This document shows, piece after piece, positions 1 through 34,949 of a DNA stretch of 42,435 nt (positions are counted from its first letter, which is position 1; each line of letters starts with the position of its first letter). This stretch comes from Fragilaria crotonensis. Taxonomy: Eukaryota; Bacillariophyta; Fragilariophyceae; Fragilariales; Fragilariaceae. The position numbers and the translations under genes are program-made. Below the pieces are notes generated by a model. That model worked only from the letters and a program-made list of their open reading frames with translations, was not told the origin of the DNA and ran no database searches. The stretch covers positions 1 through 42,435 of the forward strand of contig JAKSYS010000546.1 of assembly GCA_022925895.1 (NCBI GenBank), written 5' to 3'.

Positions 1-154
1 CCTCTAACATTCGCTACGTCAACGTTCGGCCCGTGTGTAGATAGGTAGATGTTTTTGGTCCTATAGAGTAGTACTAGTAGGTTGTGGTGGCGATTGCAGT
101 TTTACTGAGTACCGTTCACCCTGCAACCGTAGGCGGACCTAGGGTCCGCTTCTG
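1..154 (-). repeat. Split direct repeat B2 (terminal)
   Basis: This 154-bp stretch recurs at 423-576 with no difference that I could see. It is the distal terminal repeat of the tyrosine-recombinase element. A 16-bp spacer (155-170) separates it from repeat A2. Confidence 0.9.
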
Positions 155-170
155 GCGTGGGCGGGCGGGT

Positions 171-411
171 TTTAACTAACAAGTTCCTGACCCCTCACAG
201 TGCGTTCGGGCTCGCGAAGATCGAGCGTGTGAACACAGAGGTATCAGCTGCTGGGTGATCGTAACCGATGTTGCGATGCTTCGTCCCAAACAATGGACGA
301 TTGCTTGTCTCTTCTGTTCAAGCTGCCGAGAAGAATTCTTTGGTGCGCACGTGTTCAGTGGAACGTTCTGTACGCTTGGCCGATCTCTTGTCTGCGCATC
401 TGCTATCAGCG
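171..411 (-). repeat. Split direct repeat A2 (internal)
   Basis: About 241 bp, starting TTTAACTAAC and ending CTATCAGCG, matching 6106-6346 with roughly a dozen substitutions or indels. It lies between B1 and B2, as expected for PAT/Ngaro elements. A GGGC-TTC-GCCC hairpin sequence sits at the A2/B1 junction (411-421). Confidence 0.88.
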
Positions 412-422
412 GGCTTCGCCCG

Positions 423-576
423 CCTCTAACATTCGCTACGTCAACGTTCGGCCCGTGTGTAGATAGGTAGATGTTTTTGGTCCTATAGAGTAGTACTAGT
501 AGGTTGTGGTGGCGATTGCAGTTTTACTGAGTACCGTTCACCCTGCAACCGTAGGCGGACCTAGGGTCCGCTTCTG
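423..576 (-). repeat. Split direct repeat B1 (internal)
   Basis: Second copy of the 154-bp B repeat, located about 20 bp beyond the stop codon of the recombinase frame. Together with A2 and B2 it forms the B1-A2-B2 3' terminus of the element. Confidence 0.88.
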
Positions 577-596
577 CCCCCATGGGCCCGAAGGAA

Positions 597-1786
597 TTAG
601 AAGGGTGGGGCGCCGGCAAGGAGTGCCGCCGCCGGAAGGGTGGGTGCGTCACCAGGGGTGAAGCTGAACGTACCGCCACGGAACATGGCCGCGGCGATGC
701 CGTTCATAACGGGTTGTGCCTGGACATGAAGGTACCGGTACATCTCATCGGAGCGCCAGCGCCCGATGAGGCGTATGCGGTCGCCATCAATGCCAGCACA
801 CAGGAGAGCCATGGCGCCCCCGGAGCGGGTGGAGCGTGCCGAGACGTCTTTGGCAGAGAAGCCTAAGCCGGGGGACAAGGCGACAGCGCTGCGAAGGAGA
901 GCAGTGATGCAGGAGGGCGGAACATATTGCCAGCAGGAGGTAGGAGATGTGCGCGACGCATTCAGGGGAGTGGTGGGAAGAGCATTGTGTTGCCGGAGAT
1001 GGAGAGCTCGGGAGGCGAGGCGCAGGACGGGGCAGAGTGTGGGGTGGCCGGAGCGGCCATGACCGACGGTCTCCCCCCGCACACCGTTCTTTTGGGAGGT
1101 GAAAGTCAAGGTGGCGAAGGTAGCGGCGGTCAAGTCGGCCAGCGGACAGGTCGGAACGTCCAACTTGCGGCCACCGATCCAGAGACCCAAGTCTTGGAGG
1201 CGGAACAAATCGTCAGCGTCCGTCTTGGGGGCTCCCGCATACTCGCCAGGACGTAGCAGGAAGTAGAAGGCAACCACCATGCAGTCCGCTGCCGCAAGGG
1301 CCAAGGGAGTGCCACTGAGAAGAGCTAATTGGGAGGCGCCATGAACGACTTGGAGTGGGAGCGGTTTGACCCGTGTAGGCGGGGGGTCCGCCTTCTTCCA
1401 GGCCTGAAACAGGGAGGAGAGACGAACATCCACGACGCCGAAGGCATTCAGGCGAGGTCAATGGCCCCCACCCCGGCGAACGCCTGCCCCACGCCTCGTA
1501 GGGCGTCCTCCACCGTGCGAGATCGGACGGGCCGGCCGCAGGGCGACAGGAGGCCGGTGCGGTAGCGGTGTGCAAAGTTGGAGTACAGGTATTTTGTCGC
1601 GAGGGTGTCCGTGAGGTCGGTAGCGACCCCGAGATCGGAACAAAAGGTCTCCCACAGTTGCCAGGCGGCTCGAGCTGAGCGATCTCGCTGAGGAGACACT
1701 CGGGCACGCATCGTTGCTTGGATAAGGCACCATTCAAAGCGGAGAGCATGGTGGGCGTCGGGTGGTGTAGTGTCCAAGAGGTGCAC
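597..1786 (-). pseudogene. Tyrosine recombinase (DIRS/PAT/Ngaro-like), frame-broken
   Basis: The N-terminal core-binding part (1448-1786) shows the family pattern around YRTG and PVRSRTV. The catalytic part (597-about 1445) contains LLRPGEY (first Arg box), the SARSTRSGGAM box, GRWRSDEM and RYLH with the presumed nucleophilic Tyr. The two parts lie in different frames, meeting at about 1448-1460 with a single-base break. The box-II position usually occupied by His in this family reads Arg (SARST). The recombinase would excise and insert the circular cDNA. The upstream RNase H frame runs into this one near 1680-1790, again out of frame. Family assignment is firm; loss of activity is inferred. 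Confidence 0.85.
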
Positions 1787-3664
1787 TGTGGGTAAGCAGA
1801 ATCAAAATGGGTGAGTAAGTCAGAGTCGCTCAAGTGCCACAAGCGGCTAGCATCATCAGCCATCGAGTTGGCGGTGCCCGCAATGTAATGATGACGGGAG
1901 ACGTAGCGATGAGCCCGTTGGTGGAGGGCATTGAGGCGAAGGAGGTAGGCCCGCGCACGATCGGAGGTTGCCGACCCTTTTGTTGCCCAAGAGAGGGAAG
2001 CCTTATTGTCGCCCGCGATCCAGATGGTGCGTTCGTGGACGTGTCGGGCTTGTGCCAGAACATCCTTGTGGGCGATGGTGCCCACGAGTTCCAAGTCCGA
2101 GATGCTAAGCGTGCCGTGAGGGTGGTCAGCCGTGATGAGCGAGGATTGGACGGAAGCTGGGAAAGGGGCGCGCCACACGATGGGTGGAGCGTCCGGCTGG
2201 AGCAGGTCGAAACACACGCCGCCCATGCCGCGGCGACATGCGTCACACGAGCCCGAATCGGAGGGGGACACCGGAACCAGCTCGCGGAGACGAGTGGGGC
2301 GGTGCGCCAACGAGTCGGCTAGGAGACGAAAGTCAGCCATGGTGTCAAAGACATGGCGATTGAGGCGAATGCGCCCCCGGTCACCGCGACTAAGGGCGTC
2401 TTGGAGAACCGAGAAGAGACCTCCGGAGCCGGGAAGTCCGGGCGCCATGGAGCGCAGTTCCCCGAGCAGCTTATGCCATGCCTTGAGGGGAAGGCGCTTG
2501 CGAGGCGGCTGCACTGCATCCAGGAGCTCATAGAGGCAAGCAATGCGGTGAGGGGGTAAGTTGAGGGTCCCCGCCACAGTGTCGAGTTGCCACCCCAAAA
2601 TCATCTTCCGGGTGTCCCAATGTGCATCACCTTGGAGCATCTTTTTGACGGACGAGGGCTCCTTGCGGTGACTGGGGTCAGCGTCTGATAAAGGCCGTAG
2701 GACGGAGTCGATGGCGTGGAGCGTGGCCCTCAACAATCGGCTTTGATGGCTGCCGACGAGTCTGCGCTGTGAGAAGAAAGTCGTCCACATAGACGTCGGC
2801 GACAGCTACCGGTGGGCGGCGGGAGGCACCAAAGTGTGCGTTTTGGCTCGCCCACGTGTGCTGGCAGGACGCACCACCAAGGGGTGTGCTACGTTTCCAG
2901 ATGGTAGCTGGCCTCGTCGCGTGGGTGTTGTCCTCGTTGGCGGATGGTGGCGTGTTGGCCGCCTGTTCCAACCGATGTGCCCGCATGGGCCCGCCGTGCG
3001 TCATGGCTGCGTTTGCCAGGTCGCAAGCGGTTTCCGTCAACGTCGTAAAGTGCGGAGGGCTCTCGACCCAACCCATTGGGAGCGCCGAAGGGAATGCCAC
3101 CAGTTGGGTGCTCCCCCCATTGCCACTAAATGGTAGCAAGACGCCGAGCTTGGGTATGTCCCGCCACCACAGCCAAACGCGATAAAAGCCATCAGCAATG
3201 TCTATTTTAGCAAGCTTTGGTGGGCCAAACCGCGGGTCAGCATGCACAATCTGCGTTAAGACACGTTGGAGGGCCCGCCCAAATTGCATTGCCTCGGCGG
3301 GGCCCAGCCGGGCGGTGTCTTGATTGACGCCCGAAAAGGTGTAGTCGACAATCAACCTCGGGCGTCGCTCACGTTGGGGCACCACGCCAAGCGGCGAGAG
3401 TCGGAGCTCGGGCCAATGCTGTACAGCGTCCAATGGCAGTACCGTCCAGTATCCTTGGCGACAAAAATCCACGAGTTCCTCGCAGACAAACTCCGTGTGG
3501 TCGCGAGCGGACTTGTGGCATCCGCGCTTGGCCGCGGTCATGATCTGCTCGTGCGTCCAGGGCGCCGTCCGCATTGGCACGGCAGCGCCTTTCCGTCTGA
3601 GATGGTCCAGTAGGCGGCCTGCCTTGTGCGGGATCCACTGGACTTTGTCATCCAAAAGTCCCAC
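1690..3664 (-). pseudogene. Reverse transcriptase-RNase H of the tyrosine-recombinase element
   Basis: The RT part runs from about 3664 and shows LGVVPQRERRPRLIVDY, motif A (KIDIADGFYRV), motif B (LPMGWVESPP) and motif C (VYVDDFLL). Just after motif C (about 2760-2800) the frame changes. It continues as the typical thumb and linker (HAIDSVLRPL, RKEPSSVKKMLQGD, ILGWQLDT) and then RNase H, with acidic positions in SDLELVG, AGDNKAS and NSMADDASRLW. The protein copies genomic RNA into cDNA. No ATG is evident at the RT start; the region between the gag stop (3924) and 3664 is probably part of the same polyprotein or a re-initiation zone. The frame break may be decay, although a programmed shift cannot be excluded from one copy. 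Confidence 0.87.
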
Positions 3665-3923
3665 GGGCGTGCTTCACCAGTTTTTCCCATCCAACGGACG
3701 CCAACTCAACACTAGCCACTGCTGCCCACTTACATAAAGTCGCCTCCGCTGGGGACAATTCTGGCTCGACCTGCTTGCGCCGTTTGTTGCCCCCAAAATT
3801 TGACCACTCGTCCGAATTTCTCAACCTCGTCGCGCCCACCGTTGGTGCCACGACGCCTGCCGTGCAGGGGAGATGGCGTCCGGGCGCAGGTGCTCTGGCT
3901 ATCGCACCCGGAGCCGCCTCATG

Positions 3924-6068
3924 TCATTCCAGGCGCAGGTGGGTTGTGGCGTATGCCAGCAACCGCTCGCGCTCTCCTGGGGACGCAAAGGGGACGTGGG
4001 CGCTGCGCCTCCCGCAGGAGTAGCACCCACCTTTACACCACCATCCCACACAAAATTCGTTTCCCGCGTCGTTGCGGGGCGGCCGATGGGCCCGGGTCAG
4101 CGGACCGAGAGCACCCCGCAGCGCCATGTCATTGAATGTGGGATCGCTGACCGGGTTGGTGCTGCGGGTTTGAGCAACAGCCGTGGTTGCCGCCGTCAAT
4201 GCGGAGACTCCACTGGCTACACTTCCACCTCCCCCGGTCGTCGTCGACGTAGTCGTGATTGTGCCAGCCGAACGTGCGGGCTGTATGGCGATGACCGGGG
4301 CTACAACATAGGCTGATGGAAGGGGCACCCAGCCATTTGAAGTGTGGAAGGTTCCCCGTTGCAAGTCCAACAAAAGTTGAGTAAAATCCGGCGAGGCATC
4401 GACAGCAACTGCAATGTCGTCGGCGGCCGCGATCATGATTCCCCGAAGGTATTCGTACACTTGAATTTGAATGGAGCGAAGGATGCGGGCTGGGTATGCC
4501 TGTTGAATTGCAGGAGACCCTGCAAGCCCATGGTACCGGTCCAGTATGAAGGGGAGTTTGTTCTGGTACCCCGTGGCCAGGGCCCAGATGGAACGCACGA
4601 ACGGATGCACAGGTTCAGCTACTCCCTGAAACAAGGTTTGCACCAGGACGGCGTACCTCTGAAGAGTCGTGCCTACCTGGTGCAGGTCCGTCGGGAAGCG
4701 AATCTTCTCCTTGTCCTTGATCGCCTGAATGTCAGATAGTGTCGCACCGTGCATACCTTGGTCCAGCTGTTGCGACACCCCGGCTGACTCCTGCGCCTGA
4801 TAGTAATCTGTAGCGCCAACATAGGTTACCTGAAACGGGTTGCACCCTGTGCCCAAGTCATCGGGTCCAAAACCGGCAAAATTAAAGCTAACAACCATCT
4901 GCTTAAGTGCCGTTGTGACAACAGGGCAAACAAGCTCCGGGTTCAGCATCCGGTCCGCACACACCTTGGCAAACTCCTGTTGGAGGATGGTTTGCTGCTC
5001 CCCCTTCTGGCAGTTCGCCAAGCGATCCCAGATTTGGGCCACCCCAGTTGCCTCCGTCACTCTGTTGTAGCGAAGGAGAACAGGGTAGGTTTCTTTGTAG
5101 GCTTCCCGAATGGTGCGTGGCTCGCGTGTGTGATCGTCGGTATTGCGTGCCGCTGCTAGAGCTTGTACTACGGTTGCAATCTCAGTGGCGCCCAGTACCC
5201 CGGTACCGCCCACCCCCACGGGGTTGCGCAGTGCTGGCAAATCTGACATGATCTTAGAGACGACATAATCATACACCGCCCCCGGCAAGTGAACAGGGTT
5301 CAATGGGTGGAGCACGATGGAGGAGCCGGCTTGTGGGCCCGCCCCGCCTCGGCAAGTGCAGGCCGTCCGGAGCCAAGTCAAGATGTCCGAGCAGGCAACG
5401 TCATTGCCGTCCGCATGGATTGCCCCAGCAATTTCCTGATAAGCTTGTTTTGGTGTGACGCCTTCGCGATGTACCAACAAGGCAGCGTAGCGACTGGGCA
5501 CGAGTTGCACATTTCGGGGCCTCACTACCTCGGTTAGGAGATCCGGCTCCAAGTATGGGCCCAACGGGGCATCCCCATCCCACGTAGCCAAGATCCCTGC
5601 CATGGCATCATGAGTCGGGATGCGTACCTGGGAGGCAACCAAATAGAGTATCGTTGCCGGGACGTCCACTACTGGATACTGATTGGGGCGTAGGTCGCCA
5701 AGGAGGCCGAGTACTCGATCGCGAAACCCCGTGGTGGGTTCGCCTGGAAGCTCCATGTATCGCATGAAGCGATGGAGGATCCTCACTTCAACCACCTCGT
5801 CCAGACGCGCCACCAAGCATAAAAATGCCATGGGCTGGCGGTCGCAAAAGAGAACAGTCTGGTCACGTAGCGCCCCCGGTGTCGGCACGGGTTGCCCGCC
5901 TCCGTCGACGAAACGGTAGCCAGCTAAGTATGCCGCTGGGTGCCCGAAGACGGCATCGCGGGTACGGTCGGAAAACACTTCACGGTAGGACGTAGGCGCA
6001 GTAGGCGCTCGTACGGCCGGTGCCAGTACGGGAGGAACAGCCTCCGGGACAAGGCCTGGGTGTGCCAT
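3924..6068 (-). CDS. Gag-like protein of the tyrosine-recombinase element (714 aa)
   Basis: Single uninterrupted ORF with an ATG in a good context (ACCATGGC) at 6068, about 40 bp inside repeat A1. The N-terminus is rich in Pro and Ala. The large central part has no domain I recognise. The C-terminus has a Cys-rich cluster (CVGWWCKGGCYSCGRR) that looks like a zinc-binding knuckle, followed by a short amphipathic tail. Its place first in the element, its length and its terminal Cys cluster suit a nucleocapsid/Gag role in packaging element RNA. It is the only intact ORF of the element. Function is inferred from position. Confidence 0.75.
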   Translation of the reverse strand: MAHPGLVPEAVPPVLAPAVRAPTAPTSYREVFSDRTRDAVFGHPAAYLAGYRFVDGGGQPVPTPGALRDQTVLFCDRQPMAFLCLVARLDEVVEVRILHRFMRYMELPGEPTTGFRDRVLGLLGDLRPNQYPVVDVPATILYLVASQVRIPTHDAMAGILATWDGDAPLGPYLEPDLLTEVVRPRNVQLVPSRYAALLVHREGVTPKQAYQEIAGAIHADGNDVACSDILTWLRTACTCRGGAGPQAGSSIVLHPLNPVHLPGAVYDYVVSKIMSDLPALRNPVGVGGTGVLGATEIATVVQALAAARNTDDHTREPRTIREAYKETYPVLLRYNRVTEATGVAQIWDRLANCQKGEQQTILQQEFAKVCADRMLNPELVCPVVTTALKQMVVSFNFAGFGPDDLGTGCNPFQVTYVGATDYYQAQESAGVSQQLDQGMHGATLSDIQAIKDKEKIRFPTDLHQVGTTLQRYAVLVQTLFQGVAEPVHPFVRSIWALATGYQNKLPFILDRYHGLAGSPAIQQAYPARILRSIQIQVYEYLRGIMIAAADDIAVAVDASPDFTQLLLDLQRGTFHTSNGWVPLPSAYVVAPVIAIQPARSAGTITTTSTTTGGGGSVASGVSALTAATTAVAQTRSTNPVSDPTFNDMALRGALGPLTRAHRPPRNDAGNEFCVGWWCKGGCYSCGRRSAHVPFASPGERERLLAYATTHLRLE

Positions 6069-6105
6069 GGTACGATACTTCGTAGGCTGTGCCGCGCAGG
6101 TGTGG

Positions 6106-6346
6106 TTTAACTAACAAGTTCCTGACCCCTCACAATGCGTTCGAGGCTCGCGACGATCGAGCGTGTGAACACAGAGGTATCAGCTGCTGGGTGATTGTAA
6201 CCGATGTTGCGATACTTCGTCCCGAACAATGGATGATTGCTTGTTTCTTCTGTTCAAGCTGCCGAGCGAATTCTTTGGTGCGCACGTGTTCAGTGGAACG
6301 TTCTGTACGCTTGGCCGACCTCTTGTCTGCGCGTCTGCTATCAGCG
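6106..6346 (-). repeat. Split direct repeat A1 (5' terminus)
   Basis: Matches 171-411 and lies directly upstream of the gag-like ORF start at 6068. It defines the right-hand (5' in element orientation) boundary, ending at CAGCG, after which unrelated sequence begins. Confidence 0.87.
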
Positions 6347-12919: not shown

Positions 12920-13285
12920 AAAGAATACTCCAGTACCATGTACTATGAGGTCTACGGTACCATACCGGTACTCAACTTGGTGAGTATCGGCTCACTTAAC
13001 ATAGGATTGCATTTTAACAAACCCCTTATAAATCGTGTCATCATCTTATGTTGCGTCTCGTCATCTCGTCCCTCGATCGTTCCACAGGAACAACCCGAAT
13101 CAAAAAATGAGAACACTTCATCATGAACACGAATCAAAAAATGAGAACACGACTTCATCATGAACGTTGCAACAAGTTCACAACCAGATCGCGAACATAT
13201 TCAACTTGAATTGAATTGACTTCGCTTTTGCGTAAAGCCAACATTTCGTTTCAATCGTCACTTATGGCGTCAGAAGCTAATAATT
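12920..13285. other. Upstream region of the ankyrin gene with a short tandem duplication
   Basis: The left part is rich in GTAC motifs. At 13096-13165 a 33-36 bp unit (CGAATCAAAAAATGAGAACAC then CTTCATCATGAAC) occurs twice in tandem. A 12-codon upstream ORF (ATG at 13264) overlaps the ankyrin ATG out of frame; both ATGs share the context ATGGCGTCA. Confidence 0.5.
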
Positions 13286-14032
13286 ATGGCGTCATTCATT
13301 GAATCCAAACAAACGATATTGATTGAGAATGCCCAAAAGGGTAATCTTGACGAGGTTCTTGAGCTCTTGAAAGAGGGGGCAAACGTGAATGCCACAAATA
13401 CCTCGAGTGAAACAGCTCTCATTTTGGCAAGCCGTAATGGCTTTGCGGACGTCGTTAAAGCTTTGCTGAATCACCATGGGGTGAATGTGGATATCAAGAG
13501 TAAAAATGGAAACACAGCTCTCATCAACGCAAGCTATAAGGGCAATTTGGACGTCGTTCATGCTCTGCTGAATCACGACAGGGTTGAGGTGAATATCAAG
13601 GGTGAACATGGCAGCACAGCTCTCATTGCGGCAAGCTGGCACGGCCATTTGGAAGTCGTACGTGCTTTGCTGAATCACCGCAGGGTGGATGTGAACATCC
13701 TGAATAATGTTGGCAACACAGCTCTCATCACCGCTAGCTATAGGGGCCATTTGGGCGTCGTTCATGCTTTGCTGAATCACGACAGGGTTGAGGTGAATAT
13801 CAAGGGTGAACATGGCAGCACAGCTCTCATTGCGGCAAGCTGGCATGGCCATTTGGACGTCGTGCGTGCTTTGCTGAATAAAGACGGGATTGATGTGAAT
13901 ATCCGGAATAATGATGGTGCCACAGCTCTTGAATCTGCTCGCAAAATGGCGAACGACAAAGTTGTGCGTCTCTTGGAGGAACACATGGCGCATGGAGAGT
14001 GCCTAATGCGCTTAGAATTAATGCGCTTATAA
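13286..14032 (+). CDS. Ankyrin-repeat region of an ankyrin-kinase gene (248 aa as it stands)
   Basis: The ORF is almost entirely ankyrin repeats of 34-35 aa (about seven), with repeated TALI-A-S--GH--VV-ALLNH cores. Ankyrin repeats bind protein partners. Two repeat pairs 204 bp (68 codons) apart are nearly identical in DNA, marking recent internal duplication. The native sequence ends at about 13994 (LLEEHMAH). The final dozen codons and stop come from an inserted inverted-repeat element (13995-14642). Beyond that element the frame resumes exactly in phase as AHAEGRN and leads into a kinase domain. So the ankyrin block was very probably the N-terminal half of a single ankyrin-kinase protein. 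Whether a truncated ankyrin protein or a spliced fusion is now made cannot be told from DNA. Confidence 0.85.
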   Translation: MASFIESKQTILIENAQKGNLDEVLELLKEGANVNATNTSSETALILASRNGFADVVKALLNHHGVNVDIKSKNGNTALINASYKGNLDVVHALLNHDRVEVNIKGEHGSTALIAASWHGHLEVVRALLNHRRVDVNILNNVGNTALITASYRGHLGVVHALLNHDRVEVNIKGEHGSTALIAASWHGHLDVVRALLNKDGIDVNIRNNDGATALESARKMANDKVVRLLEEHMAHGECLMRLELMRL

Positions 14033-24728: not shown

Positions 24729-25402
24729 GTTTCTTTGATTTCATTGCCAACCCTTTGAATTCCAAACCATCATCTCCTTGGAACTTCATTACAACTCAAC
24801 CTTCATAATGGTCATAATTTGTTCGAGCAATAGTCCTTCACATTTTTCAACCTTGATTGCAAGGGCAGGTCTTGGTGACAAGCGTCTTATACTTCATCAG
24901 GGGAAATAATGCTATTGTGGCACACACTTTCTTGCATGTATTGCAACACCCATTGGAATTTCCTTTCCCAAACACCTGATTGGTTATTGAAGTTTGCCAA
25001 TACAGCATAAAATTTTCTGAAAAGTCTAGGTTTTATGTTGACAATTGTATGACTTATTCAGCATCGTTTCTTTGATTTCATTGCCAACCCTTTGAATTCC
25101 AAACCATCATCTCCTTGGAACTTCATTACAACTCAACCTTTATAATGGACATAATTTGTTTGAGCAATATTCCTTCACATTTTTCAACCTTGATTGCAAG
25201 GGCAGGTCTTGGTGACAAGCGTCTTATACTTCATAAGGGGAAATATTGCTTTTGTGGCACATAATTTCTTGCATGTATTGCAACACCCATTGGAATTTCC
25301 TTTCCCAAACACCTGATTGGTTATTGAAGTTTGCCAGTACAGCATAAAATATTCTGAAAAGTCTAGGTTTTATGTTGACAATTGTATGACTTATTCAGCA
25401 TC
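24729..25402. repeat. Tandem duplication of a 337-bp unit
   Basis: 24729-25065 and 25066-25402 are head-to-tail copies of exactly the same length, each beginning GTTTCTTTGATTTC and ending TTATTCAGCATC, with about ten substitutions between them. There is no ORF spanning the unit. The low divergence indicates a fairly recent duplication. Confidence 0.9.
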
Positions 25403-27889: not shown

Positions 27890-28330
27890 AGTAGAACGAG
27901 AAGGCCGATCGATGTGCTTCGCGCTTCGAAACAAAACGAGAAGGCTGGGTATCACTCCCCAAACATCGTGCGGACCACATGTACTCCACTGCTCTGAGCA
28001 CCGTGGCAGGTTATTTTTTATTTTTTATTTACTCACGATTCCAAGTTGAGCATTGAAGTTTCGACCTTGGAACGAGTGCCAGAAATGTGAGTATTCCTCG
28101 TGCAATCTTCTTGGAAGCAAAAATGAAGCATTCAAGAAGAGCGGTACCAGGTTGGTAGTCCAGAGTACAAGACTAACTGGGAAGATCCAGAAAGCCAAAA
28201 TTTCAATTTGAAGATTGAAGGTCTCTGGGTGCACAGCTGAAAACGAGAACCAGAAATGTGATCTATCCTCTATCCTCATATTCTTGGAAGCAAAACGAGA
28301 AGGCTGGCAGTCACTACCTACCCAAAATAT
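27890..28330. repeat. Degenerate repeats upstream of the G8-domain gene
   Basis: AAAACGAGAAGGCTGG followed by TATCACTCC or CAGTCACTACC occurs near 27935 and 28298. The stretch CCAGAAATGTGA...TCTTGGAAGCAAAA occurs near 28078-28124 and 28249-28295, about 172 bp apart. This suggests an old imperfect tandem duplication in the promoter or 5' leader. A T-rich run (28014-28030) lies between. Confidence 0.5.
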
Positions 28331-28352
28331 TTCTTCAAGAAAATTTTCCAAC

Positions 28353-31300
28353 ATGGTACTGAGAGTCCTTGTTCTAGCCCTTGGCTTTCCTTTCTTGCTT
28401 GCCCGTCAAGGCGACCATGAGCTTGACAAGCGCAGCAAGCTTCTACGAGGATATCCAGTCCCACCAAGTGTGACTAACTTATCGGCTATTCAAGAACCAA
28501 GCAACCGCCTTGTGACAGGAGGTGCGCGGGGTCTACACGAAGCTCTCATCCAGCATCGATCTTTCGAGATTCCGACCAAGACAGCAAGGACTCAGACACA
28601 GTCTGGAACTGGAGTGCGTCGAGCCGCCGCCCTACCGACCTCCGCTCCAGTTGGCATCCCCTCGGGGCCATTCATTTATGCAACATCTGCCAATGAGGTT
28701 GTCGTCATTCCAGACCCTCCTCGACCTAGCTTTCCTTCGCGATCGAGTTGCCCTCATCTCGACAACGACCTGCTTGATTGGCATAAACCATCTACGTGGG
28801 GTGGTCCGATCCCAAAAGCTGGGACGAATGTGACACTGCCAACGAATTCCAGAGTCGTGGTCCGACGGCCGGTCGTTGGGAAACTCTCATTTGTCAACAT
28901 TCCGGCGTCATCAGAGCTCATTTTCGGAGAGAATATCACTGGCATTACGTTTGATGTAAGTGGAATTGCTGTCAAGGGAAAGTTGACCGCGGGGTCTGAG
29001 ACTTGTCGCATAAGGACCCCTGTGACAATCACCCTCCATGGCGCACGACCCAACAGCGCAGTCACAAATGTTCCTCCACCAGAGTACAAGGGAATCTCAG
29101 TCACTGGGGAGATCAGTATCCACGGACAGCGGTTCTTCCGCATCTGGACCCGTCTTGCATTGACGATCAATCCTGGTGGTTCTGTCCTGATGCTGCAGCA
29201 CGGCGTCAACTGGGAACCCGGACAGAAGATTGTGCTCGTGACAACGGCAATGAAAGACTCGCGCGAGTGGCATAGAAACGAAGTAGCATCGGTGAAGAAG
29301 GTGATTCTTAGTCCGAGAACAGGTGTTGGGGCGGCTGTATTTCTTGAAAAGCCCGTGCTCTATCAACACATCGCCAACAGTGGATACCAAGGGGAAGTAG
29401 GGCTTCTGACTCGAACCGTGAAAATTCAAGGAAGCCAGACATCGGAGCCAACAGATCCCGATCCACTGAATTGTGTTCAAAGTTCTTCAAACTACGGCGA
29501 CGCAGCGAAACCTTGTCCAAACAAATCTTTGACTGGATACGGCGGGCACATTATAGTTCATCAAGGTGGCAAAGGTTACGTCGAGGGCGTTGAGCTGTAT
29601 CGAATGGGACAGACCAACGTCATGGGTCGATACCCTATGCATTTTCATCTCCTTGGAGAAAGTTGTTCCGATTGCTACTTCCGCGATTCTTCTGTGCACA
29701 GATCATTCTATCGCTGTATATCCGTTCATGCCACACATTTCATCGAGGTATCAGAAAATGTTGCGTACGATGTTTCCGGTTACTGCTTCTATCTCGAGGA
29801 TGGAATTGAGCATGACAACAGGATAGAGTACAATTTGGGCGCTCACATCCACATTATTGGTCCCGATCCAGCGAAGGGCACTGGTCTGATCACTTCCTTG
29901 TACACGCCAAGCAGCAGTCTCAACTTTCCTGCTGATGTTACCGCATCCGCATTCTACATAACGAATGTCCATAACTTCATAATTGGGAATGCTGCGTCGG
30001 GTGGGTGGGCGGGATTTGCGTTTCCCAATCTACTAACACCAACAGGCCTGAGTCGTGACGTGAACCTTCGACCGTCCAGTGTCAGGGAGTTGGTGATCGA
30101 CGGCAATACTGCACATTCGACTGGTTGGTGGTGGAACCGTGCAGCAGCTTTCTACTTCGGTGGGTCTCTGTATTACAACGCCGAAGGGATTCTTGAATAC
30201 CAGGCTGGGAGAGATTTGAACAACCAACGGAGTACATGCCTGCTTGATAAATGCCAGTCGTCCGCTGGATGTGGTTCGTTTTGTACTCAATGGCAACAAG
30301 CGTGGATGAGGGTATCGAATAATAAAGCTTTCCTGACGCCCAGCATTGGACTTAACTCTTGGGGTGGAAGACTGGATGTCGTTGGCTTCGAATGCCACGA
30401 CTGCGGCCTCTGCATGCAAGCGCAAGCGACAGATGGTTTCTCAGCTCACGACGTGTTGGTCGCATGTCGAAGTCGAACCCCAATCGTTCTACCAAGTTCT
30501 GCCAGCGCCAGTAAAATCCCAGCAGTTGGATTCTCGTGGTACGATACTAACCAGGAGCACATCATTTACGATATAACCTTCAGAAACTGTGGCTATCGGT
30601 CCGCAAGCTATGCACAGTATGACCAGGGCTTGACCAGAGGTTGTGGCGATGAACGTGACATCGGGTGTGATCCAAATTCTTCGGTTTGGTCGATGGAGGC
30701 CTTCAGTGACCAGAATGTACCAGAAGTGATGCATGCGACAAGAGGTGTCAAGTTTGAGAAATGCGGACGACGATTCAGAATGCACGACTTCAGGCCGATC
30801 AGTCTTCCGAATTCAAATTCTGGACGATTGCAAAACTGGTATGACATTGATGGTTCGGTCACAGGCTTGGGGGAGCGGTCTGTTATTGCGTCTGGGTTTG
30901 CTGACGCAGGCATGTGGTGGAAAGTTGACGATGAAGGTACGAACATCTTGATGGATTTGTGCTTTCCATGGTAGTTCGTATCATAGAAACATTGACTGAC
31001 AAGTGACCTTCCTCGAAATAGTTGTATTTGACCAGCAAGGTCCACTTTGGTTCTTCAAGCTGGACAGTGGGCCTCAGCGAGGACTTGGCAGCGTCACGAT
31101 GAAGTGGGACAGCACACTTGACGCACAGGTCGGCGTGTCCCATTGCGGAAACGGCAATAGTTTTCCATGCGATGCTGTGGGTCGTATCAAGCATTTGGGA
31201 GGAAAGTACAAAAACGATGCAGGCCTTCCGGTTACGGCAAATGCGCAGATTGTAGGTCCGGTGGGGGGCTTTGGCTGGAAGCTGCAGCTTTATAAAGGCG

Positions 31301-32210: not shown

Positions 32211-32857
32211 TCAACTCCCTCTTGATGTATTGGGGACAAAAGTCGAGACGGTTTGCGATCTAGGGAATTTGGCATGCAGCTCATCCCAGTGCACCAGAAA
32301 CATGTCTGCGATAGGATAAAGTATCCTACCGGTGAGCGAAAGCGATTCGACCCGACAGAAGCTCTCCACAAACACAACGTTGCCTTCACAGAGTCCGAAA
32401 ACTCGAGCCAGCAGTGTAGCTGCAGCAACTGGAATGCAGGTTCCCGGGCCGTTGCAGAGGAGCAAGGCAGGACGTGTCTTGAAAACAATCCACAAGGAGA
32501 ATATCATGGCGTACAGCGTGGACGCAATTGAGGTTACATAAGACTGGCCAACCTCTCGACTTCTGGGTATGAAATAGGTTTCAGAAGGCAACCTCCTCCA
32601 AACGCGTTGATTCGTCGTTCGCTCGTGTCATCGGTTGTAGCGACAATATAAACCAAGGGTCGTAAGTTTGTGGATTCAATTGTTGGATCATTTGAAGCAT
32701 TTCCGTCGTGTGGCCACCGGATCAAGGACGACTAACGTCTTTAGGGTAGTTTCGTTCTCACGGGTCGTTCTTTTGTATCACGGTGGTTCTGAATTGAACT
32801 CAGCACCTGATACGTTCGAACGAGGAAGGCCACGATGACGAGGAAAAGAAACAACAT
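32211..32857 (-). CDS. ALG14: ALG14, membrane anchor of the UDP-GlcNAc transferase, several frame breaks
   Basis: The ATG at 32857 starts a hydrophobic N-terminus (MLFLFLVIVAFLV), the membrane anchor. The conserved order then follows: TLKTLVVL, SGGHTTEML, VYIVATTDDTSERR, IPRSREVGQSY, LLCNGPGTCIP, FVESFCRVESLSLTGRILY and FLVHWDEL. ALG14 anchors ALG13 at the ER face, together adding the second GlcNAc to dolichol-linked oligosaccharide. The pieces lie in different frames with about four single-base switches (near 32755-32765, 32720-32725, 32650-32660 and 32587-32597). The protein-level conservation of every segment argues for sequence errors or very recent decay. The C-terminus ends a few residues after the usual WDEL region, slightly unlike animal ALG14. 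Confidence 0.88.
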
Positions 32858-33259
32858 CGTATACCCGCTGTTTGCTTTCACCGTTACTACCGATAGAGAG
32901 CAGTGGAGCAAACAGGGTAAAGAAGATGTAGTAAATGCGGTTGCGGTCGGCTCGAAGATCGACGGTATGCATACTGGTATTGCATGCTCTCTACAAGTAC
33001 TCTATTGTACAGTGCAAGTAGCCCCCAAGGAGTTCACCATACAGAAGATACTACTACAGTGTACAAGCTCTCAAAACGCATGTCCTCAAAGCACCAACTG
33101 ACGAAGAAGCCGTAGCGCAATTAGACTCTACAAACTACTCCGGTACTGAACACCATTCAAGCCGAATCGAATAACCTGTATCCTGTTGCACTCCACACAG
33201 GACGTAATCTAGTAAGAACAGACAGCGTCTGTCATTGAACATCAACTAAGCGGCGGAGA
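32858..33259. other. Spacer between ALG14 start and the plastid repeat gene end
   Basis: About 400 bp with GTAC/TACAAGTACT-type motifs near 32985-33060. It contains the ALG14 promoter and the 3' end of the plastid gene. No gene recognised. Confidence 0.4.
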
Positions 33260-33922
33260 CTATGCGAAAAACTCGTCATGTTGACGGATGCCCTTTCCTG
33301 GGATAAAGTTTCCCTTTGTGTGCTTCGCCCCCTTAAAGGTCTCGGCAGCAGGATTTTTCAAGCCAGCGAGCAAGAAGTCGTCATGTTGACGGATGCCCTT
33401 TCCTGGGATAAAGTTTCCCTTTGTCTGCTTCGCTCCCTTGAAGGTCGCGGCAGCGGGATTTTTCAAGCCAGCTAGCAAGAAGTCGTCATGTTGACGAAGG
33501 CCCTTTCCTGGGATAAAGTTTCCCTTCGTGTGCTTCGCTCCCTTAAAGGTCTCGGCAGCAGGATTTTTCAAGCCAGCTAGCAAGAAGTCGTCATGTTGGC
33601 GAAGGCCCTTGCCTGGGATAAAGTTTCCCTTAGTCTGCTTCGCTCCCTTGAAGGTCTCGGCAGCAGGATTTTTCAAGCCAGCCATCAACATTTCATCGTG
33701 TTGACGAATTCCCTTCCCGGGGATGAAATTTCCCTTTGTCTTGGGTCTCGCCTTGAATGTTTCAGCAGCAGGATTCTTCAAGCCGGCCAAAAGGATGCCA
33801 CCAAGAGCCAAAATCTCGCGGCGGTCGGCGGCAAGCTGAGTCGAGACACGAACTTGCTGCGGAATGGGAGCGAATGCACTGGCAATAGCCAGGCTGGACA
33901 AAAGAAGAACGGCAACTTTCAT
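33260..33922 (-). CDS. Plastid-targeted protein of five 35-residue repeats
   Basis: Starting at the Met at 33922 gives a signal peptide (MKVAVLLLSSLAIASA) followed directly by FAP. The ASA-FAP junction is the established diatom/red-plastid import motif. A short stromal-type segment contains an RR pair followed by a hydrophobic stretch (DRREILALGGILLAG). The rest is five 35-aa units, consensus [LM]LAGLKNPAAETFKG then AK[QH]TKGNFIPGKG then [IL]RQHDDF, and a final FA. The first unit differs (FKARPKTKG). Each unit is Lys-rich and contains NPAAET. The frame is intact and the DNA repeats (105 bp) are very similar, indicating recent expansion or homogenisation. The role is unknown. The architecture resembles pyrenoid Rubisco linkers (EPYC1, PYCO1), but no sequence match to them is claimed. 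Confidence 0.85.
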   Translation of the reverse strand: MKVAVLLLSSLAIASAFAPIPQQVRVSTQLAADRREILALGGILLAGLKNPAAETFKARPKTKGNFIPGKGIRQHDEMLMAGLKNPAAETFKGAKQTKGNFIPGKGLRQHDDFLLAGLKNPAAETFKGAKHTKGNFIPGKGLRQHDDFLLAGLKNPAAATFKGAKQTKGNFIPGKGIRQHDDFLLAGLKNPAAETFKGAKHTKGNFIPGKGIRQHDEFFA

Positions 33923-34190
33923 CATCGTCAAAAAAATATGGTAGCCGACTGACTTCGATGTCATCGACCATCAAAGCCAGAAGGTACTGTCCTCCAGTAT
34001 TCACTTTACGTACGTTTCGACACCACCTCATTGAAGGCAAATCTTAAATCAACTGGTAGGTATTTTCTAAATTAGAGTTATGGTTCCCAATTCCCCAAAA
34101 TGGGATTCGATGTCTACGGTCTACTACAGTACCTGGTACCAGTACAAGGTACAAACACCCTGTGCTAGTAGATATCAATACGCGATCGGC

Positions 34191-34949
34191 GATGGTGCGA
34201 TGGTGCGATGGTGCGCGACGGACAATGGGCACTGCTATATTTATTGCTATTGCTATTGCTATTGCTATTGCTATTGCTATTGCTATTGCTATTGCTATTG
34301 CTATTGCTATTGCTATTACTTTATTGCTATTGCTATTGCTATTGCTATTACTATTATTATTGCTATTGCTATTGCTTTATTGCTATTGCTATTTTATTGC
34401 TATTGCTATTGCTATTGCTATTGCTATTGCTATTGCTATTGCTATTGCTATTAAGCTATTGCTATTGCTATTGCTATTGCTATTATATTGCTATTGCTAT
34501 TGCTATTATATTGCTATTTATTGCTATTGCTATTATATTGCTATTGCTATTGCTATTGCTATTAAGCTATTGCTATTGCTTATTGCTATTGCTATTGCTA
34601 TTATTTATTGCTATTGCTATTGCTTTATTGCTATTGCTATTGCTATTGCTATTGCTATTGCTATTGCTATTGCTATTATTTATTGCTATTGCTATTGCTA
34701 TTGCTATTATATTGCTATTGCTATTGCTATTGCTATTATATATTGCTATTGCTATTGCTATTGCTATTGCTATTGCTATTGCTATTGCTATTGCTATTAT
34801 ATTGCTATTGCTATTGCTATTGCTATTGCTATTGCTATTGCTATTACTATTGCTATTACTTTATTATATTGCTATTGCTATTGCTATTGCTATTGCTATT
34901 GCTATTGCTATTGCTATTGCTATTGCTATTGCTATTGCTATTGCTATTA
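34191..34949. repeat. 0.7-kb hexanucleotide (ATTGCT)n microsatellite array
   Basis: From about 34241 to 34949 the sequence is almost only ATTGCT units with occasional interruptions (ATTACT, TTTATTGCT, ATTAAGCT, ATTATATTGCT). A short GATGGTGC minisatellite (34191-34215) precedes it. All three plus-strand frames are largely open because ATTGCT reads as Ile-Ala, Leu-Leu or Tyr-Cys. GATATC sequences lie near both edges (34171 and 34950). Confidence 0.93.

Follow-up and report, generated by a model that had tools for sequence, protein, structure and literature searches.

What a diatom plastid might do with a protein made largely of five copies of one basic unit is the question raised by a small gene of Fragilaria crotonensis. 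The gene lies on a 42,435-nt stretch of DNA (hereafter, the window), which is contig C499 of the 62.1-Mb, 881-contig assembly searched here. The initial annotation, made from the letters of the window, had put it forward as a candidate pyrenoid linker, that is, a plastid-targeted protein that might condense Rubisco through its repeats. Based on the sequence and structure predictions described below, we rate its product as a probable plastid multivalent repeat protein with a unit of its own and an unusual thylakoid-like leader.

According to the translated open reading frames of the window, the repeat gene occupies an intact frame on the minus strand (33925-33260), with a product of 221 aa. It starts with two adjacent Met codons, the first at 33925 and the second, from which MKVAV is read, at 33922. 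The previously given span of 33260-33922 is thus correct when counted from the second of them, while a start at an upstream Met in the same frame (33964) would lengthen the product by 13 residues, to 234 aa. The precursor consists, in this order, of a signal peptide ending in ASA, FAPIPQQVRVSTQLA, ADRREILALGGILLA, five units of the type GLKNPAAETFKGAKQTKGNFIPGKGLRQHDDFLLA and the stop codon (Table 1). Translation bore out the intact frame, the signal peptide, the ASA-FAP junction (ASAFAP is literally present) and the five basic 35-aa units described initially. The accompanying statement that there is almost no other sequence needs qualification: the repeats do dominate, but 30 residues, FAP included, lead from FAP to the repeats, and they contain a twin-arginine/hydrophobic segment that went unmentioned there.

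Table 1. Features of the repeat gene, in positions of the window
Feature	Position	Strand	Basis or remark
Coding sequence (221 aa, counted from the earlier of the two Met codons)	33263..33925	-	stop 33262-33260
Predicted ER signal peptide, residues 1-17, ending in ASA	33875..33925	-	sequence and ASA-FAP rule (available text of PMC3774753)
Segment resembling a transit peptide, FAPIPQQVRVSTQLA, residues 18-32; stromal cut predicted at QLA|ADRRE, with Leu at -2	33830..33874	-	sequence compared with the rules in the available text of PMC3774753
Twin-arginine and hydrophobic stretch ADRREILALGGILLA, residues 33-47; thylakoid-transfer-like, without A-x-A cut site	33785..33829	-	sequence; weak PsbQ match
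Repeat unit 1, most diverged (GLKNPAAETFKARPKTKGNFIPGKGIRQHDEMLMA)	33680..33784	-	
Repeat unit 2	33575..33679	-	
Repeat unit 3	33470..33574	-	
Repeat unit 4	33365..33469	-	
Repeat unit 5, 34 aa, terminal RQHDEFFA being the protein end	33263..33364	-	

Units 1-4 are each 35 aa long and unit 5 has 34 aa. When the repeats were compared with themselves at a lag of 35, 122 of 139 residues were identical, whereas shuffling these residues 5000 times gave 11.6 on average and never more than 25. Tandem Repeats Finder reported a period of 105 with 4.9 copies and 89% matches for the gene. The repeat region is strongly basic (pI 10.24; 31 Lys+Arg versus 14 Asp+Glu), each unit carrying a net charge of +3 or +4, and Trp, Tyr and Cys are missing from the whole repeat protein. 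Between unit 1 and units 2, 3 and 4, we counted differences at 16 of about 23 synonymous sites, which is close to saturation (dS about 2), and at 12-13 of about 82 nonsynonymous sites. The resulting dN/dS of 0.08-0.09 at near-saturated dS indicates that the unit has long been kept at the protein level. Among themselves, units 2-4 are separated by 4-6 synonymous changes and by 1-3 nonsynonymous ones (ratio 0.07-0.15), and the pairs involving unit 5 are less clean (dN/dS 0.19-0.32, one undefined), because this unit is one residue shorter and the alignment was ungapped. The repeat gene is a real protein gene under purifying selection and no chance open frame, and units 2-5 look like younger copies. 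In a codon-use test in which each FCP was removed from its own reference, the repeat gene scored -0.06, between the three FCPs, which are antenna genes (0.19, 0.26 and 0.27), and seven neighbouring or background genes (-0.28 to -0.44). Since seven other plastid-type genes spread as widely as -0.34 to 0.17 (PsbP control, -0.20; PsbQ-like control, -0.34), the score would point to fair expression at most.

Searches with the full protein, a 61-aa piece and a degenerate GNFIPGKG pattern found the unit elsewhere in the assembly on contig C162 only, although such searches may miss copies; the pattern, which allowed one mismatch, matched five times on each of the two contigs. We considered a second gene copy on C162 and rejected it, since the coding stretch differs from that of the window by one silent base plus single-base gaps, and the flanks agree, as in a second contig of the same locus; identity is 95.3% over 3.4 kb, with a simple-repeat array included. 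The repeat gene appears to be single-copy in the assembly, with five units on both contigs. On C162 it is out of frame owing to single-base gaps, mostly at G or A runs, and the neighbouring ALG14 is a single open frame there (L002:390-1040; Pfam 201.7 bits) and is broken in the window (32211-32900, approximate). As ALG14 is broken in one contig and the repeat gene in the other, both contigs seem to carry indel errors, and we read these frame breaks as errors of the assembly.

The simple-repeat array consists of about 117 copies of TATTGC (34242-34948) and ends about 317 bp ahead of the start codon of the repeat gene; on C162 its counterpart (L002, about 2404-3238) is seemingly longer. The array may belong to the promoter region and vary between alleles, or it may be misassembled. 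Further away in the window, long minus-strand ORFs at 597-6110 fall in a GC-rich stretch (GC 0.59-0.62 over 1-6000 versus 0.37-0.50 elsewhere). By eye, one of them has a YVDD reverse-transcriptase-like motif and another is tyrosine-recombinase-like, a pair that we take to be as in DIRS-type elements; Pfam gave no match for the ORFs 2681-3673 and 1216-2805. The window also contains a 337-bp unit in two tandem copies (24729-25402; 96% matches), an ankyrin-repeat ORF whose repeats lie within a 102-bp/204-bp tandem array (13220-14029), and an ORF with a G8 domain and a CEMIP beta-helix (28212-30971), a combination known mainly from animal proteins.

The ASA-FAP rule for diatom plastid import is given in PMC3774753, according to the available text of which the measured transit peptides of T. 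pseudonana are 12-42 residues long (mean 20), have Leu at position -2 and hydroxylated residues at positions -3 to -6, and are almost free of acidic residues; the cut is followed by Ala, Ser or Met, and the 5-6 residues past it are net negative as a rule. Judged by these rules, a cut at FAPIPQQVRVSTQLA|A fits in length (15 residues), in Leu at -2, and in Ser and Thr at -5 and -4. It departs from them in having Gln at -3 instead of the usual Ala or Ser, and the sequence after the predicted cut has a net charge of zero where the rule is negative. As far as sequence can tell, the presence of a plastid import signal in the repeat protein, and with it the original claim of plastid targeting, is supported by the hydrophobic presequence, by ASAFAP and by a transit-peptide cut in line with the published rules. 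The ASA-FAP codon pattern matches the genome 48 times, and 17 times when read backwards. In a control sample of 30 of the 48 matches, 19 had a Met at a distance of 9-45 residues upstream, and a hydrophobic presequence was present in 17 of the 19; 13 of the 30 were without a signal-like presequence, some of them possibly because it is hidden behind an intron. One of the 17 sites is the C162 copy of the repeat gene, and the other 16 amount to 12 distinct ones, four near-identical pairs being among them. The diatom origin of the assembly shows in its numerous antenna-protein matches, of which those inspected carry leaders of the ASA-F type, and in the rbcL of its plastid contig C881 (see below).

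The first residues past the predicted transit-peptide cut, ADRREILALGGILLAG, combine a twin arginine with a hydrophobic stretch. We scored this feature as an RR with an 11-mer whose mean hydropathy is at least 2.0 no more than a few residues behind it, all inside 45 residues of FAP, and found it at none of the 16 other signal-bearing ASA-FAP sites, five of whose frames stop before 45 residues; one of them (L026) has the RR without the hydrophobic stretch. Because the PsbP control reaches a maximum of 1.89, which is below the threshold, this count was not tuned on luminal proteins. Of six PsbP/PsbQ matches in the genome that could serve as luminal controls, two have a readable N-terminus. In the PsbP (L011), the segment is NRRHALESAAASASMFIVAAPALA within SAFGIGVNRRHALESAAASASMFIVAAPALA, with the RR shortly past the leader, and in the PsbQ-like protein (L014) it is DRREALFAMLGSLVASMSVPVAASA within DMDRREALFAMLGSLVASMSVPVAASA, with the RR about 50 residues past the leader and behind an acidic stretch, hence in a position unlike that in the repeat protein. 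Thus, the repeat protein shares with these lumen proteins of the Tat route a twin arginine followed by a hydrophobic stretch, and it aligned to the photosystem II extrinsic chain 6jlu_Q at E 0.8. However, its hydrophobic stretch is shorter (12 residues versus 20 in both controls), it has no PsbQ domain (Pfam PF05757 scored 12.5 bits over residues 23-93, under the cut-off of 26.9), and no A-x-A thylakoidal peptidase site was found after the hydrophobic stretch. The loose -3/-1 rule picks out only ALGG|ILL, ILLA|GLK and LLAG|LKN, and, as LLAGLKNPAA comes back in the units, with LAGLKNPAA at their boundaries, the 'signal' in part belongs to the first repeat.

Pfam and NCBIfam profiles called no Tat signal in the repeat protein; as they missed the PsbP and PsbQ controls too, this result is uninformative. 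FBPase, our stromal control, is present at five loci, and its N-terminus is readable only in L019 and in L020 (the latter is uncertain, since its frame differs from that of the FBPase match), with a twin arginine in neither. TatC is encoded on the plastid contig that also carries rbcL (C881), and a second, weaker match is found on C880. A further ASA-FAP protein (L033), with GLFGLGAPELVVIAIAAAFLLGPQKL, resembles by eye a nuclear-encoded plastid TatA; this 89-aa fragment has no Pfam match, and a near-identical frame (L042) ends earlier. Altogether, the leader leads us to rank thylakoid targeting of the repeat protein somewhat above stromal. Rubisco is a stromal enzyme, and a luminal location would therefore exclude a Rubisco linker. 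The rbcL gene on C881 is closest to chains 7yk5 (presumably the P. tricornutum complex), 5n9z and 5mz2, and identical to none of the three; 5MZ2 is the Rubisco of Thalassiosira antarctica in the available text of PMC10288592.

AlphaFold2, run on the single sequence, returned a mean pLDDT of 43.2, with zero residues at or above 70. At that confidence, it placed short helices at residues 73-84, 108-120, 143-155 and 178-190, which are 35 residues apart and cover the RQHDDFLLAGL junctions, along with a four-residue helix at 157-160 and one at 29-49 over the RR segment, and none in the last unit. The highest helical moments (0.57-0.60) belong to stretches of the GKGLRQHDDFL type. With low confidence, the prediction agrees with short amphipathic helices strung along a coil rich in Lys, Gly and Pro, and we infer from it that the mature protein is mostly disordered.

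How far does this architecture resemble that of known linkers? As described in the accessible part of PMC10288592, PYCO1 of Phaeodactylum tricornutum (Phatr3_J49957) carries six tandem repeats, each about 80 aa long except for a half one, with the motifs KWSPR/Q, GTGYNP and AAEWGSMNQ and stickers that depend on Trp and Tyr, and BLAST returned no homologue of it outside this species. The repeat protein is likewise a basic tandem-repeat protein of a diatom, predicted to be plastid-targeted and mostly disordered, but it differs in its 35-aa unit, in the lack of Trp and Tyr and in the Tat-like segment that precedes the repeats. None of the three motifs occurs in it, as its composition already implies, and, having neither Trp nor Tyr, it carries no PYCO1 sticker. 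Genome-wide, a single KWSP-type sticker codon pattern had no match, although it covered only TCN serine codons with a limited residue set and Gly after them and thus leaves room for a PYCO1 relative. Linkers of different lineages have no common sequence, as far as the available text of PMC13159521 and PMC10473226 goes, and together with the failure of BLAST to find PYCO1 beyond P. tricornutum this means that another diatom may use something else. EPYC1 is described in the parts of PMC10473226 and PMC11570498 available to us as a disordered chain with evenly spaced short helices and five Rubisco-binding sites. The evenly spaced short helices predicted here recall EPYC1 of Chlamydomonas and CsLinker of Chlorella, and the five units the five sites of EPYC1. 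However, these two proteins belong to the green lineage, with its Form IB Rubisco, and a PDB sequence search with the repeat protein gave no linker match. The FLIPPer criteria (disorder, repeated structured elements and a spacing of 20-120 residues) returned 13 Chlorella proteins, of which one was pulled down with Rubisco as well and turned out to be the linker (PMC11570498, available text), so such features are permissive.

Database searches assigned the protein to no family. The Pfam match to SPO11_like (25.1 bits, cut-off 24, residues 108-129) passes by 1.1 bits over 22 repeated residues and was treated as chance, and we regard as composition or repeat artefacts the Pfam DM9 and PsbQ matches (below cut-off), eight PHROGs matches to pieces of 10-23 residues (E 3e-4 to 0.09) and three NCBIfam matches far below cut-off. 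No relative was confirmed in viral contigs (two pattern scans gave 14 and 6 matches, of which tblastn confirmed none), in bacterial and archaeal genome contigs (49 pattern matches, none confirmed, and none in a second scan) or in a phage search (two matches, E 3 and 6). Of two PDB sequence searches, one returned nothing and the other four matches at E 0.7-1.9, of which two covered just the leader; none of four peptide words from the unit matched the literature text. Given that the searched collections hold few or no algae, these negatives say little about diatoms, and we do not claim orphan status for the protein. For comparison, among 14 functionally uncharacterised plastid proteins of diatoms in the available text of PMC3774753, a homologue from some other diatom was known for 12.

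Our leading, albeit tentative, reading is that of a plastid-imported, thylakoid-directed multivalent binder of five units. The nuclear gene would give rise to a precursor that passes through the ER by means of its signal peptide and ASA-FAP and is then imported into the plastid, where removal of the transit peptide at about QLA|ADRRE would expose ADRREILALGGILLAG. This segment would most likely hand the protein to the thylakoid Tat route and thereby to the lumen or the thylakoid membrane. In its mature form, the protein would be a basic and largely disordered chain in which five equal units follow one another, with the amphipathic helix GKGLRQHDDFLLAGL at the junctions and Lys/Gly-rich coil between them, so that one weak docking motif, kept near-identical by selection, would be presented five times at 35-residue spacing. 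The five sites may cross-link or cluster copies of an abundant, probably acidic thylakoid partner, our guess being a photosystem, an antenna complex or a protein of the lumen. Plastid import, thylakoid transfer and multivalent binding are all steps that we infer from the leader and the repeats. The identity of the partner depends on the compartment, since the lumen or thylakoid would point to a photosystem, an antenna or a luminal protein, and the stroma to several candidates, Rubisco among them. We think it unlikely that the protein is a disordered linker working in the lumen, where five near-identical, Tat-delivered basic stickers would cross-link photosystem or antenna complexes from their luminal side, or else an acidic protein of the lumen. 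Were that so, the EPYC1/PYCO1 principle would have a luminal counterpart of unrelated sequence; on a speculative note, the His residues of the unit might let binding follow the lumen pH.

The reading that competes most seriously with a thylakoid-directed binder keeps the protein in the stroma or on the thylakoid surface, where it would be a multivalent binder of a partner other than Rubisco, be it the stromal face of an antenna or photosystem, the ribosome, or nucleoid DNA or RNA, with ADRREILALGGILLAG being a mere N-terminal flank of repeat 1. The strong net positive charge, the lack of a canonical thylakoid cut site and the fact that the hydrophobic stretch is partly common to the units all speak for it. 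We nevertheless hold it to be doubtful, because the RR adjoins the predicted transit-peptide cut and is absent from the 16 other ASA-FAP sites in that form. Less probable still is a lineage-specific linker of the pyrenoid matrix, that is, a stromal protein whose five weak helical stickers condense Form ID Rubisco. Plastid targeting and the basic, repeat-only, multivalent design of the original linker proposal stand, the 35-aa spacing falls inside the FLIPPer range, and disorder and recurrent helices are a weak fit; the unrelated sequences of EPYC1, PYCO1 and CsLinker (PMC13159521, available text) and the empty, if narrow, search for a KWSP-type pattern are likewise compatible with a new linker. 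What the proposal lacks is a PYCO1 Rubisco-binding motif, as neither Trp nor Tyr is present, and the Tat-like segment past the transit peptide and the FLIPPer base rate of one proved linker among 13 candidates in one genome (PMC11570498, available text) also count against it. Given the Tat-like segment and the missing Trp and Tyr, the fallback of the initial annotation, namely a thylakoid protein or the linker of some other complex, fits better than its title.

Two further explanations dispense with a multivalent plastid binder. A secreted or endomembrane repeat protein that has ASA-FAP by chance would be in keeping with the number of reversed-pattern matches and of sampled sites without a signal-like presequence, but the combination of ASA-FAP with a hydrophobic presequence and a suitable transit-peptide cut in this one gene renders it highly improbable. 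We give the least credence to a polyprotein, in which the five imported units would be cut at a repeated site (LLA|GLKN or NPAA|ETF) into 35-aa peptides. It would account for the near-identity of the units and for a mature part with almost nothing else in it, and LLA|G at the unit boundary agrees with a loose small-residue cut rule; however, the boundaries of units 2-5 are preceded by RQHDDF or RQHDE and no hydrophobic signal, and we know of no diatom precedent.

Diatoms are responsible for a large share of marine CO2 fixation, and the organisers of their pyrenoids and thylakoids are known in few species. If the repeat protein is stromal and has no multimeric partner, it would be of minor importance. 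As a small single-copy gene with five near-identical units held by selection, it nonetheless offers an easy handle on whether this lineage has a Rubisco linker of its own or a multivalent scaffold on the thylakoid side, of which we tentatively favour the latter.
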